A stretch of 64,000 bases of DNA from positions 1 to 64,000 of IMG/VR virus record IMGVR_UViG_3300031257_000001. One strand, 5' to 3'. Numbering within the stretch: the stretch's first letter is position 1; every line of letters starts with the position of its first letter. Below, one piece after another: positions 22,325 to 27,127 of the stretch. Source of the stretch: a virus. The position numbers were made by a program, and so were the translations under genes. The notes under the pieces are model-generated. The model saw nothing but the letters and a program-made list of their open reading frames with translations. It searched no databases and was not told where the DNA came from.

Positions 22325-24186
22325 GCGACGGCAATGCAGAAGTGGTCAACTTTGAGAGCGCCAGCCGGAGCGCAGACGGGGCCAATCGGAAAGCTCTGCG
22401 CAAGATCCGGGCGCGTGTCATCGAGGTCAACACAGAGAAGGCGGGAACCTCCCCAAGCGGATTGACAGGTGCCACCGCGAAGCCTGGCAAGAGCGAGGCG
22501 CCTCCCGAGGAGCCATTCCACACGCTGGCCCGGAAGGGTCTGGTCATCGAGCCCCCATTTGATATGCTCACGCTCGCGATGCTCGTGGAGCACAACAGCG
22601 AGCTGGGACAGTGCGTGGAGGCGATGGAGACCAACATCGACGGGACCGGGTTCAGGTTCATCTCCCGTTTGAAGTTGGACGACATCCCGCGTGACAAGCT
22701 GCCGTCGGAGGGCGGTGACGCCCCACCTGACGCTCCGAACCCAGAGATGACGCGCGCCTTGCGCGAAAAGACCAGGCTGACCAACTTCTTCACCTATTCC
22801 ACAGAGGAAAGCTTCACCAAGTTCAGGCGCAAGCTACGGCGCGACCTGGAGACCACTGGCAACGGCTACTTCGAGGTGTTGCGCAACGAGAAGGGCGACG
22901 TTCAGGGCTTCACCCACATCCCGTCCTACCAGATGCGGCTCGGGAAGTTGGAAGATGAGCAGCGACTTGTGGAGCGCAAGATTCTGGAATTGCAGGTTGA
23001 TGGCAGCGTCCAGATCAAGACACAGAAGGTGTGGCGTCGCTTCCGGCGCTACGTCCAGAGCCGGGCCATCCACCGTCGCAGCCTGTCCACAATCGAGGGG
23101 CACAAGGTCAGATGGTACAAGAGCTTTGGCGATGAGCGGGACGTTGACAAGCGTGACGGCCGCTATGCGTCGGAGGGCAAGCCTGTCGATGGCGACCAGA
23201 GAGCCACGGAGATCATCCACCTGAGCTTGTACAGCCCGCGCACGCCATATGGGCTGCCCAGGTTCATCGGGAACCTTTTGGCCATCTTTGGTGATCGGGC
23301 CGCTGAGGAGATCAACTACATCACATTCAGAAACAACAACATCCCGTCCATGGTCGTGTTGGCCTCCAACGGGCAGCTCACCGAGGGGACGATCAAGCGC
23401 ATTGAGAGCTTCGTGGAGAGCCAGATCCAGGGCTCCGACAATTACAGCAAGTTCCTGATCATCGAGGCGGAGCCGTTCGGTGAAGAGGGTGAGGACGGAG
23501 GGCAAGTCAAGGTTGACATCCAGCCGCTCACCAAGGACCAGCACCGGGACGCGCTGTTCCAGAACTACAGCCAAAACAACCAGGACAAGATCAGGCGTTG
23601 CTTCCGTTTGCCACCCATCTTCGTGGGGCGTTCCGATGACTACACGCGCGCGACTGCGGAAGCGAGCCGCCGTCTGGCCGACGAGCAGATCTTCAGTCCC
23701 GAGCGGGATGAATTCGACACTGTGGTGAACCGCGTCTTGTTCCCAGAGATGGGGATCCGCTTCCACCGCTTCAAGAGCAACAGCCCGAATACGACGGACA
23801 ACCAGCAGCTGGTCCGAATCCTCGCCGGCGCTGAGAAGACAGGCGGTATGACTCCACGCATCGCCCGGGCCATGCTGGAGGACATCCTGGGCATCGACCT
23901 CCCCGGCTTTCCGGAGGGCTTCCCTGCGGATTCGCCGTTCAGTTTGACAATGGCTGAAGCCGTCAAGAACAAGGGTGATGCGTCGGAGCCCGGGCAGCAG
24001 GTGACGGCGTTGAAGGCCATCGAGCAACTCACCGGCGGCGACCTCCTGGACTTCGATGACGACGATGAGAGCCTGCTGTCGGTGGCCAAGAAGCTGATGG
24101 CTCTCCAGAAGGCGGCAGAGGTGGCATGGCGCGCCAAGCTCGCCCGGGATGGTGAGCTTGATGAACCTGGCGCCGGCGCCGACTGA
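22321..24186 (+). CDS. Portal protein
   Basis: A 621-residue protein, ATGA overlap with the terminase. PBSX/SPP1-type portal features are present: an N-terminal disordered region, then MLVEHNSELGQCVEAMETNI, a central region with SLYSPRTPYGLPRFIGNLLA, and the C-terminal RATAEASRRLADEQIFSPER. It forms the dodecameric ring at the head vertex through which DNA passes. The acidic C-terminal tail is usual for the family. The next gene starts within its last codons, as portal and MuF-type proteins often do. Confidence 0.9.
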   Translation: MSDGNAEVVNFESASRSADGANRKALRKIRARVIEVNTEKAGTSPSGLTGATAKPGKSEAPPEEPFHTLARKGLVIEPPFDMLTLAMLVEHNSELGQCVEAMETNIDGTGFRFISRLKLDDIPRDKLPSEGGDAPPDAPNPEMTRALREKTRLTNFFTYSTEESFTKFRRKLRRDLETTGNGYFEVLRNEKGDVQGFTHIPSYQMRLGKLEDEQRLVERKILELQVDGSVQIKTQKVWRRFRRYVQSRAIHRRSLSTIEGHKVRWYKSFGDERDVDKRDGRYASEGKPVDGDQRATEIIHLSLYSPRTPYGLPRFIGNLLAIFGDRAAEEINYITFRNNNIPSMVVLASNGQLTEGTIKRIESFVESQIQGSDNYSKFLIIEAEPFGEEGEDGGQVKVDIQPLTKDQHRDALFQNYSQNNQDKIRRCFRLPPIFVGRSDDYTRATAEASRRLADEQIFSPERDEFDTVVNRVLFPEMGIRFHRFKSNSPNTTDNQQLVRILAGAEKTGGMTPRIARAMLEDILGIDLPGFPEGFPADSPFSLTMAEAVKNKGDASEPGQQVTALKAIEQLTGGDLLDFDDDDESLLSVAKKLMALQKAAEVAWRAKLARDGELDEPGAGAD

Positions 24187-27127
24187 TCAGCTAGCCGACG
24201 CTGGTTGGTGGATTGGGTGCGAGATCTGCGCCCAATCATCGCTGGCCCTGTATGACATCCTAGTCATCTCTGACGAGCTGGTGGTCAAAGGGTTGCTCGT
24301 TCCGGAGATGGCACAGATTGCGCGCAACGAGGACCGCCTGCGCCAGCTCCTGCTCGCACAGTGGCGCGTGAGGTCAAAGCAGGCGGTCGAACGCTCGCAC
24401 GCGGTCTGGATGTCCAGCGGGGACCTCGCTGCCTCGATGGCGGCCGTGGACGTCGTGATGTCCAAGTGGGCAGATGACGTCAAGGGCCGATTCACACAGG
24501 GGCTGATCGACATCTACACGTTGGGTCGTGAGGCGGGAACGAAACGGGCCGCCGGCATCATCACGCGGCCGCTGGACTACACTGTCGGCAACTTCACCGA
24601 GCAGCTGGGCGACCAGGCGCGCATCGCCAAGGCGACTCCGCGAGTGGCCACGGCGTTCGATGTGTACGATGCTTCCGCCGTCACCGCGTTGATGGATGAG
24701 CAGATGTTGTGGATCGGCCGTCACTACGGTGCGAACGTCAGCGAGACCATCCGCCGTTCGGCGCGTGAGCAGATCGTCGGGCGCGGCCTGGGCCGGCGCG
24801 AGGCCGGGAAACTGCTGCGTGATGACGTGGCACGCAACCTGGATAAAGTGACCGTGCCCAAAGGCTTCAACGGGAGCCAAGCCAAATATTTTGAGGGGCT
24901 GGCTGCCAACGCCGCAACCATCGGGAGGGTCCGGGGTCAGATTCGTTCGTTCCAGGACTTGGGTGTCACACGCTACGTCTTGTCCAACCCGATGGACCGC
25001 AGGACCACGCGCCAGTGCATCCACATGAACGGGAAGGTGTTCACGGTCCAGAACGCTGTCAATCAAATTGAGCGGACCGCCGGGGCGACTTCCCCGGACG
25101 ACATCAAGCGTGACCATCCGTGGCTCTCCATGTCACAGATCCTGGCCGTCTCGCCTGTCGCTGGCCGATCCACGGCCGCCGATTCGGGGAAGCTTGCAGC
25201 GGCCGGCTTCTCGCTTCCACCTTTCCACTTCCGTTGCATGCCAGGATCCACCACAGTCCAAGGCCAAGTAGAGATGGTCTCAAAGAGGCTCTACTCTGGT
25301 GAAATCGTGGAAATACTTACGGAAAGCGGCAGACGAATTGCCTTGACGCCCAATCACCCCGTACTTGCCGTACAAGGATTTGTCTCTGCTGAGTCTGTTC
25401 ACAATGGCATGGATCTTGTCTGCTACAAGATCAGGACGGAACGGCTTGCGGTCGGGACCGGCATTAGCCTCAACGTACAGAACAAACCAGCCGCTGTCCA
25501 GCATGTATTTGAGTCGTTGTTTGTAGCGTTCGACAGACTTGTGATTCGGCGGTGCCCCGGAGACTTCTATGGCGAATCGGATGTTATGGATGGCAAAATC
25601 CACGTTGTATCTGTGGATAGCAAATTGTCTGGTGAATTGAAGACCAGATTTCAAGAACGCATCATTGAATGCCGCCTCAATTTTGGAGAATCTGCCGCGC
25701 GTCCAACATCTGCTTTGGGCCGTGTTGGCTCTGGCGATCATCTCTCTGTCTCCAATTGTTCGAGTGCGGGCAGCACGCCAGGCTGCACCGCATTGTCTTG
25801 TGATCAATTCAACTCTATTCGGAGCAGATTTCACCCTGAACCACTTGATAGCGTTTGCTTCGGACCTGCCTCTGATCTTGGCGCCTTGTCTCCTGAGGAA
25901 GGACACGACAGCGTTCTCAGAGACTCCGTGCAGCTGGCCAATCGACTTAGGGGACTTTCCGGCCTTGTAGAGTTGGATCGTGTCGTTTCCGTCAGGAGGT
26001 TCCCATTTCGCGGCCATGTGTATGATCTCCAAACCAGAACTGGTTGGATCATAGCCGAAGGAGCATTCATAAGCAACTGCCGTACCACCGTGGACATAGC
26101 TCCGGGGCAGACGGCATTCAAGCCTCTCACTGCGCAAGAACAGCGGCTGACCATTCCTGCCAAGCCACGGCCGACTCCCAAGCCACGGCCGGCCGTTGCC
26201 AAACCGCTCGCCAAGCCGAAGCCGACCAAGAAGCCCACGACGACACCGAGGTCAATGCCTGCCGCCAGGAGACCGGCGACGATGCCGCCGGTGGATCCAC
26301 TGGCTGTGTTGCAAGCTCCCGTCAACAGCTTCAAGCCACTGGGTGGTGGTGCGAATTCATCCGAGCTGCTGGAGCTTGAAAACGGCATCAGCGTCGTGTG
26401 GAAGCCGGCCGCTGGCGAGAGTGCCACTCTGACCGAACATGTTGGCGGTGCGCTTCACAAGCGCGAGGCTGCTGCGTACCAGATTGACCAGATAGTCGGG
26501 ACCAATGTTGTACCGAGGACGGCGCTTCGCAAGTACGGCGGCGAAGTCGGGAGTGTCCAAGAGTTCATCGGTAGCGCCGTTGAGTTGGACATGGCATCTC
26601 CGGCAGCAATTGCTTCTGCTTCAGCCAACTCTGCACAGAGGATGTCGCTTCTTGATGTGATCATCGGGAACACCGATCGTCACTCGGGCAACGTCATGGT
26701 GGCAAAGATCGGAGGGAAGCAGCAATTTGTGGCGATAGACAACGGGTTCTCCATGCAGCAGTCAGCTCAGCTTGTTCGTCGCTGGTACTATAACGGTGAA
26801 GCCTCATACGAGGTGTCAAAGAGCAAGGCGTTGGCGATGTTCGATTTCAGACCGTTGGCGGCTAATCTGGAGGCTGCATCGCTGGCTGATACGGCGGCCG
26901 CCCTCGCGGCGAGTGGCGTTGAAAGAGACGCAGCCACGCAGGTTGTCGGGAGGCTGGCCGCATTGAAGCGCCACCCCATGGCGTTGCACAGGACGGTAGC
27001 CGGCGCCGAAGGTGAGTCCCCTGCGTTGTACAAGACGAAGGATTGGGTGGGTGGTGAATGGAAGGCTGGGCTGTCTGCTGCTGACACAAAGGCCATCCAA
27101 ACTGCCATAAGTGGTGCGTACAAATGA
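24149..27127 (+). CDS. MuF-like head morphogenesis protein with intein and C-terminal kinase-like domain
   Basis: A 992-codon precursor. N-terminal helices lead to a SPP1 gp7/MuF-like domain (about 190-362 plus 644-650): SNPMDRRTTRQCIHMNGKVF and PPFHFRC. The Cys-rich end of this domain is interrupted by an intein (residues 363-643); splicing would join FHFR to CRTTVDIAPG. After a Pro/Lys-rich linker (665-714) comes a PI3/4-kinase-like (HipA/actin-fragmin-kinase-like) domain: Lys752 in VVWKPA, the catalytic loop IIGNTDRHSGN (836-848) and IDNG with Asp864. MuF proteins sit inside the head and can be ejected with DNA, so the kinase could act in the host cell. ATG 24149 overlaps the portal gene; ATG 24161 is an alternative. 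Confidence 0.85.
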   Translation: MVSLMNLAPAPTDQLADAGWWIGCEICAQSSLALYDILVISDELVVKGLLVPEMAQIARNEDRLRQLLLAQWRVRSKQAVERSHAVWMSSGDLAASMAAVDVVMSKWADDVKGRFTQGLIDIYTLGREAGTKRAAGIITRPLDYTVGNFTEQLGDQARIAKATPRVATAFDVYDASAVTALMDEQMLWIGRHYGANVSETIRRSAREQIVGRGLGRREAGKLLRDDVARNLDKVTVPKGFNGSQAKYFEGLAANAATIGRVRGQIRSFQDLGVTRYVLSNPMDRRTTRQCIHMNGKVFTVQNAVNQIERTAGATSPDDIKRDHPWLSMSQILAVSPVAGRSTAADSGKLAAAGFSLPPFHFRCMPGSTTVQGQVEMVSKRLYSGEIVEILTESGRRIALTPNHPVLAVQGFVSAESVHNGMDLVCYKIRTERLAVGTGISLNVQNKPAAVQHVFESLFVAFDRLVIRRCPGDFYGESDVMDGKIHVVSVDSKLSGELKTRFQERIIECRLNFGESAARPTSALGRVGSGDHLSVSNCSSAGSTPGCTALSCDQFNSIRSRFHPEPLDSVCFGPASDLGALSPEEGHDSVLRDSVQLANRLRGLSGLVELDRVVSVRRFPFRGHVYDLQTRTGWIIAEGAFISNCRTTVDIAPGQTAFKPLTAQEQRLTIPAKPRPTPKPRPAVAKPLAKPKPTKKPTTTPRSMPAARRPATMPPVDPLAVLQAPVNSFKPLGGGANSSELLELENGISVVWKPAAGESATLTEHVGGALHKREAAAYQIDQIVGTNVVPRTALRKYGGEVGSVQEFIGSAVELDMASPAAIASASANSAQRMSLLDVIIGNTDRHSGNVMVAKIGGKQQFVAIDNGFSMQQSAQLVRRWYYNGEASYEVSKSKALAMFDFRPLAANLEAASLADTAAALAASGVERDAATQVVGRLAALKRHPMALHRTVAGAEGESPALYKTKDWVGGEWKAGLSAADTKAIQTAISGAYK
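25280..26017 (-). CDS. Homing-endonuclease-like gene antisense inside the intein
   Basis: A 245-residue protein on the strand opposite to the intein. Residues about 12-45 are an HTH (IQLYKAGKSPKSIGQLHGVS). Residues about 110-175 look like a Vsr-like/PD-(D/E)XK nuclease: Glu114 in FSKIEAAF, Asp140 in IHRYNVDFAI, Glu151 and His159 in AIEVSGAPPNH, then KQRLKYMLDSGWFVLYVEAN, the strand-helix-strand expected after the catalytic core. ATG 26017 has GGAGAT seven bases upstream and a TTGCTT-17-TATGAT promoter. The codon register is exactly antisense to the intein. It would cut intein-free alleles to spread the element. Confidence 0.8.
   Translation of the reverse strand: MAAKWEPPDGNDTIQLYKAGKSPKSIGQLHGVSENAVVSFLRRQGAKIRGRSEANAIKWFRVKSAPNRVELITRQCGAAWRAARTRTIGDREMIARANTAQSRCWTRGRFSKIEAAFNDAFLKSGLQFTRQFAIHRYNVDFAIHNIRFAIEVSGAPPNHKSVERYKQRLKYMLDSGWFVLYVEANAGPDRKPFRPDLVADKIHAIVNRLSRDKSLYGKYGVIGRQGNSSAAFRKYFHDFTRVEPL
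26025..26030 (-). promoter_or_regulatory. Ribosome binding site of the antisense endonuclease
   Basis: Reverse-strand GGAGAT, seven bases before ATG 26017, the same core as the GGAGATC boxes of the early genes at 178, 2221, 2668 and 12256. On the + strand these bases encode Asp-Leu of the intein block F motif GHVYDL. Confidence 0.7.
26048..26076 (-). promoter_or_regulatory. Sigma70-like promoter of the antisense endonuclease
   Basis: On the reverse strand: TTGCTT (26076-26071), exactly 17 bp, TATGAT (26053-26048). The -35 box lies over the codons for Ser280-Asn281 and ends one base inside the intein border at 26077, so the promoter is carried within the element. It resembles early promoter P1 (TTGCCT-17-TATGTT). 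Confidence 0.6.

Follow-up and report, generated by a model that had tools for sequence, protein, structure and literature searches.

The 64,000-nt stretch of viral DNA analyzed here (positions 1 to 64,000 of IMG/VR record IMGVR_UViG_3300031257_000001; hereafter the window) contains a phage head protein gene interrupted by an intein, and the opposite strand of that intein encodes a second protein, a Vsr/EDxHD-like endonuclease. We consider it very probable that the homing endonuclease of this intein is encoded by a separate opposite-strand gene with its own start signals instead of forming part of the intein protein.

The Intein and Its Antisense Gene

The head protein gene, the intein and the antisense gene are laid out as follows.

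24149..27127, + strand: MuF-like phage head protein gene, 992 amino acids (Phage_Mu_F 0.019; TIGR01641 6.5e-6)
25235..26077, + strand: intein, 281 amino acids, Cys1 to Asn281, followed by Cys (Intein_splicing in 30/30 aligned members; TIGR01445; Hint fold)
25235..25432, + strand: N-terminal splicing half, residues 1-66, blocks A and B (high confidence in the sense model)
25436..25930, + strand: central part of the intein read in the sense frame, largely low-confidence filler (model confidence; substitutions track the antisense frame)
25955..26077, + strand: C-terminal splicing half, residues 241-281, blocks F and G (sense model; GHVYDL at 26012-26029)
26017..25280, - strand: Vsr/EDxHD-like (DUF559) endonuclease gene, 245 amino acids plus stop (DUF559 6.1e-7; fold)
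25889..25990, - strand: helix-turn-helix region of the endonuclease, residues 10-43 (helices 10-18, 23-30 and 34-43 in the model; HTH_23 0.012)
25385..25693, - strand: nuclease domain, residues 109-211 (alignment A4; fold-match range)
25280..25282, - strand: stop codon TGA, the complement of sense TCA at intein codon 16

The sense protein has the class 1 Hint layout (Cys1, block B TxxH, block F, and a terminal Asn before Cys), from which splicing is predicted. C1, T38, H41, G260-H261-V262-Y263, L265 and N281 are invariant in 30/30 aligned inteins, and the top Foldseek matches of the sense model are inteins with the Hint fold. The model has a mean predicted local distance difference test score (pLDDT) of 63.6, with confidence mainly at both ends; pLDDT falls below 50 at residues 68-79, 129-141, and 143-232.

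Read from its ATG, the antisense frame stays within the intein to its stop, and its codons face the sense codons one-to-one. Modeled with 40 relatives, the antisense protein has a mean pLDDT of 94.2. Its closest solved fold is E. coli Vsr (1cw0; Z 10.6, 114 residues, root-mean-square deviation 2.5), and it also matches I-Bth0305I (3r3p; Z 10.0, 94 of 97 residues, root-mean-square deviation 2.7); both rank above the unrelated structures further down. A sequence search of solved structures with P0001 gave no match. Asp140 and Glu151 are invariant in 41 aligned sequences and Glu114 is conserved in at least 90%, with the His/Asp part of the EDxHD motif not identified; HTH_58 matches 18 of the 41 family members. 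By profile and modeled fold, then, the antisense product is a Vsr/EDxHD-like nuclease joined to a helix-turn-helix, and site-specific cutting is predicted. On the sense strand, a DFHGDG motif common to the family (25562-25579, + strand; DFYGES in the window) lies opposite the nuclease strand that carries the invariant Glu, so its conservation may stem from the antisense strand.

Distribution Among Phages

Matches to the antisense protein were found by tblastn in 102 phage records (approximately 30% identity among the matches listed), and the sense intein query matched 125. All 22 loci inspected (21 phages and the window) have an antisense frame that runs without a stop from the neighborhood of block F to within the first 1-22 intein codons. 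Searches of viral contigs confirmed 364 relatives with an antisense profile and 376 with a sense block F/G motif, and the best 80 were kept from each. Among the best 80 of the 364, the opposite strand carries an N-terminal Hint half in 80 and a C-terminal half in 78. Among the best 80 of the 376, which were found by the sense motif only, 79 have the antisense nuclease; the remaining contig is truncated and gives a weaker match. Single-protein scans of viral and genome contigs with P0001 yielded no confirmed relatives, and an A3 profile scan of genome contigs yielded one locus, L303. For many of these genes the existing annotation is no more than head protein or hypothetical protein; in a Salmonella phage record (L003, 2626-3027), part of the antisense strand is already annotated as a hypothetical protein.

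Evidence on mobility comes from the Salmonella phage copy, not from the phage of the window. When its extein flanks were joined, they gave ungapped matches of up to 98.9% identity in other phages, and intein-bearing and intein-free alleles therefore coexist among close relatives.

For the analyses below, 143 complete inteins were grouped into 113 clusters at 80% nucleotide identity. Nine of 80 loci from the first search were left out for lack of a parsable complete intein, and 50 non-identical complete inteins were added from 79 cases of the second search.

Selection on the Antisense Frame

Of the 113 clusters, 110 have an open antisense frame, and approximately 18 would be predicted from extein codon use. 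In 38/113 clusters the most internal antisense stop sits at codon index 16. At L113, L153, and L169 the frame is broken by one, two, and one stops, respectively, with the intein retained; these may be decaying nuclease genes.

Substitutions were counted in 10 chosen pairs without shared sequences. At sense codon positions 1/2/3 the counts were 345/94/162 in the intein middle and 75/20/63 at residues 23-75. The region past block F gave 11/4/46, codons 1-14 gave 4/6/47, and the extein gave 128/93/406. In the middle, variation thus falls on the wobble base of the antisense frame, and at the ends on that of the sense frame. When synonymous codons were permuted with the sense protein held fixed, the antisense profile score of the window dropped from 262.3 to a mean of 103.2 (sd 14.4), and in 8/8 other loci all permuted scores fell well under the real one. 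An antisense gene would explain why the sense middle looks like filler.

Proposed Start Signals Within the Splicing Motifs

The first-pass annotation, made from the DNA letters alone, had read a promoter, a ribosome site and a start codon on the reverse strand of the last intein codons, spelled TTGCTT, 17 bp, TATGAT, then GGAGAT, seven bases, and ATG. A base-by-base check found every element where it had been placed:

26071..26076, - strand: proposed -35 box TTGCTT, one base inside the intein border, over Asn281, Ser280, and one base of Ile279
26048..26053, - strand: proposed -10 box TATGAT, 17 bp from the -35 box (sequence; fixed-position enrichment)
26025..26030, - strand: proposed ribosome site GGAGAT, complementary to the whole Leu265 codon, flanked by the end of Asp264 and the first base of Gln266
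26015..26017, - strand: proposed start codon ATG, the complement of the His261 CAT codon in GHVYDL, seven bases from GGAGAT

The placement of the -35 box over Ser280-Asn281 is thus right, with the one base of Ile279 to be added (26076-26071), and so is that of the ribosome site opposite Asp-Leu and of the start opposite the block F His. Promoter boxes, ribosome site, start, and stop all lie within 25235-26077, in agreement with the proposal that the signals, whose use is predicted, travel inside the mobile element; the element would then carry its own expression wherever it lands.

Codon choice in the family follows these signals closely. The block F Leu is CTC (antisense GAG) in 87/101 cases across the 113 clusters, with 25.3 expected from extein codon use, and the block F His is CAT (antisense ATG) in 86/105, with 40.5 expected. 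The bias was present in the first 68 clusters (Leu CTC 50/56, 14.6 expected; His CAT 53/60, 22.2 expected) and was replicated in 45 further clusters obtained from a sense-only query (37/45, 10.8 expected; 33/45, 18.3 expected). The neighboring Val, Tyr, and Asp codons of block F match usage, and this speaks against common descent as the source of the Leu and His bias. The rest of the intein has a mild general shift in the same codons (Leu CTC 890/2959, 745 expected; His CAT 390/920, 339 expected). The penultimate Ser is AGC, antisense to the TTGCT of the -35 box, in 41/61 cases (15.1 expected). The free synonymous variation that would have spoken against the proposed signals in relatives keeping the antisense frame is therefore not seen. 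The broader suggestion that conserved splicing residues are constrained by both uses holds for the choice of codon (Leu CTC, His CAT, Ser AGC); a constraint on the residues themselves is putative.

At the block F position, 86 of the 113 clusters have ATG as the antisense codon, 19 have GTG, and eight have neither; in 8/8 of the latter an ATG lies 1-6 codons further in. Given that the His codons yield either ATG or GTG, a CAC codon does not entail loss of the start. A Shine-Dalgarno (SD)-like match lies 3-13 nt before the block F position in 96/113 clusters; in the window, GGAG is 9 nt ahead of the ATG. SD length in the 68 clusters exceeded that in all 500 resamplings (z 6.6). In 45/113 clusters an in-frame antisense stop occurs between block F and the intein end, and translation cannot begin further upstream in those clusters; a translation start outside the intein was accordingly rejected as a general rule.

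Promoter-like sequences were scored with sigma-70 base frequencies and an extended -10 bonus. By synonymous resampling, the excess of -10 boxes had a z of 17.1 in 68 clusters and 22.9 in 113. Exact antisense TATAAT occurs in 31/113 clusters, with 2.5 expected and at most 6 in 300 resamplings. At the box positions of the window, the z was 12.0 for the -10 box and 4.9 for the -35 box in 108 of the 113 clusters (five were omitted, as their block F is at another distance). Among 26 clusters with a good -10 box at the spacing of the window, TTGCTT is found in 10 and TTGCTA in 7. Members that end in His-Asn more often have TATAAT nearer the border, frequently with an upstream TG, which marks a second -10 position.

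Two sets of canonical inteins served as controls. The first, with HNFVANG ends (59/120 loci parsed, 38 clusters), had an open antisense frame in 0/34, a -10 z of -0.9, an SD z of 1.3, and Leu CTC in 0/9. With just nine Leu cases in that set, a second one was added, consisting of canonical VYDL inteins (84 loci, 75 clusters): Leu CTC was found in 3/75 (9.1 expected), TATAAT in 1/75, and an open antisense frame in 0/33. The signal-codon biases are absent from canonical inteins.

Weighing the Interpretation

Taken across the family, the sequences argue very strongly that the antisense signals exceed chance, though not in the window alone. The codons that spell the start signals are conserved, and we infer that RNA polymerase and ribosomes use them. 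Host RNA polymerase would probably initiate at a sigma-70-type promoter over the last intein codons; ribosomes, positioned by the GGAG that faces Leu, would probably begin translation at the ATG facing the block F His. The resulting endonuclease would cut intein-free head genes, leading to the element being copied in, while the ends of the sense protein would splice and its middle would act mainly as a spacer, judging from model confidence and the substitution pattern. More generally, there is likely a widespread class of two-sided phage inteins, with a splicing protein on one strand and a free-standing homing endonuclease on the other, the latter equipped with a host-type promoter, a ribosome site, and a stop codon of its own in synonymous positions of the splicing motifs.

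Several observations weigh against these readings. By synonymous resampling, the window promoter has p = 0.15 (the -10 box alone 0.14, the -35 box alone 0.39) and the window ribosome site p = 0.54, and a sigma-70 scan requiring 9/12 matches found no promoters in 25000-26400. Six rearranged AT hexamers are enriched in the promoter region of the family as well (z 2.8 to 9.2, below 17.6 for TATAAT). No ribosome site is recognizable in 17/113 clusters, the antisense frame is broken in three, and a simple catalytic motif pattern is found in 90/113, perhaps reflecting the strictness of the pattern. The clusters are also related, so that P values do not refer to independent events.

Some of these points fit an alternative in which the antisense gene is real and its transcripts begin outside the intein, the boxes being by-products of splicing motifs and AT bias. 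The window boxes are weak (TTGCTT matches the sigma-70 consensus at 3/6 positions, TATGAT at 5/6), the window antisense frame stays open past the intein end, and the decoy hexamers indicate that the enrichment is part AT bias. The same comparison indicates that it is also part specific: TATAAT stands above all six decoys and far above its expected count, the Ser codon is biased to AGC, and canonical inteins show no excess. We regard an outside start as unlikely.

Less probable again is that the antisense nuclease has a role unrelated to homing, for example in anti-host or defense cutting. Vsr-like folds do serve several roles, which leaves room for such a function. However, the nuclease lies within inteins at the parsed loci, its presence is polymorphic among close phages, and the homing enzyme I-Bth0305I is among its best solved matches.

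That the codon biases reflect endonuclease recognition of the intein ends, or RNA structure, instead of expression signals is in our view very unlikely. Such an origin would suit their closeness to the intein border, but what the biases spell, all on a single strand and with workable spacing, is GAG, ATG or GTG, and TATAAT, and ATG appears slightly further in wherever block F gives no start.

Finally, an antisense frame kept open only by sense conservation and by avoidance of TTA, CTA, and TCA codons, which are rare in GC-rich phages and leave approximately 18/113 frames open by extein codon use, is refuted by the wobble pattern that flips strand in the middle, and we give it next to no weight; the 110/113 open frames, the loss of most of the antisense profile score on codon permutation, the DUF559 match, and an antisense model that is confident where the sense middle is not also speak against it. 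A chance antisense frame was likewise rejected on the wobble pattern, the permutation, and the canonical-intein control.

If the proposed arrangement is correct, expression of the nuclease would be uncoupled from transcription and splicing of the host gene and could come early, before the late head genes. The arrangement is relevant to the question of how expression of a homing nuclease can be separated from that of its host gene, and the 364 and 376 confirmed relatives make up a large natural set for the study of overlapping genes.

Other Features of the Record

The C-terminal part of the head protein matches PI3_PI4_kinase (1.7e-8) and TIGR03843 (3e-18), that is, an SCO1664/PI3-PI4-kinase-like domain; these matches, at 26380-26980 (+ strand), make it an unusual fusion. 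Scans for terminators and for tRNAs found none.

Five intein matches occur in this one 104 kb virus record. Past the window, a second intein (65270-66202 of the record; L306) lies in a helicase-like gene and has filler-like sense sequence, and a same-strand open reading frame in its +1 frame encodes a cysteine-containing DUF559 endonuclease (Pfam 2.2e-12). At approximately 84.9-87.0 kb (L304, L308), a DNA polymerase III-like gene, named by eye, contains three intein-like inserts. One of these seems to carry an in-frame HNH; in another, an in-frame region matches the antisense nuclease profile weakly (14 bits), and Pfam gives only 0.079, to an unrelated family. Another intein lies at 91520-92176 (L305) in a RecA-like gene, also named by eye.

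Comparison With Known Systems

Inteins are usually described as one protein with splicing and in-frame endonuclease domains. The present elements resemble them in having Hint halves around a central insert and differ in encoding the endonuclease as a gene of its own on the antisense strand, with low-confidence filler as the sense middle. Our literature search found neither an antisense endonuclease in an intein nor such signals; a preprint on actinobacteriophage inteins of non-canonical architecture (Gosselin et al., 2025) was outside its coverage and may overlap with these results. In the available portions of the reports found, endonuclease genes on the complementary strand are known from group I introns, and a hidden out-of-frame endonuclease from a phage insert, and we found no antisense endonuclease in an intein among them.

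I-Bth0305I is treated in the accessible part of its report as a group I intron enzyme of the EDxHD homing endonuclease family (PMC3943268); the nuclease fold and a separate DNA-binding part are alike. The insert in phage ShiLan is open in the host frame, conceals an HNH endonuclease in a different frame and is apparently mobile by homing; it has no splicing domain, and a leaderless start was proposed, no ribosome site having been found, as far as the excerpted report goes (PMC11855218). The two systems are alike in having an endonuclease hidden in another frame of a phage insert that is open in the host frame. Unlike that same-strand frame without a splicing domain, the window nuclease is antisense, Vsr-like, and inside a Hint intein, with a ribosome site and promoter proposed. 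In the Porphyra S1506 group I intron, the portion of the report available describes an endonuclease gene of the His-Cys box family on the complementary strand, in the P1 extension of an RNA intron in rDNA (PMC2585584). Both systems thus have a homing endonuclease gene opposite a self-splicing element; S1506, as there described, is without an overlap of two proteins, whereas in the phage intein the same bases would be shared by two protein folds and a promoter.

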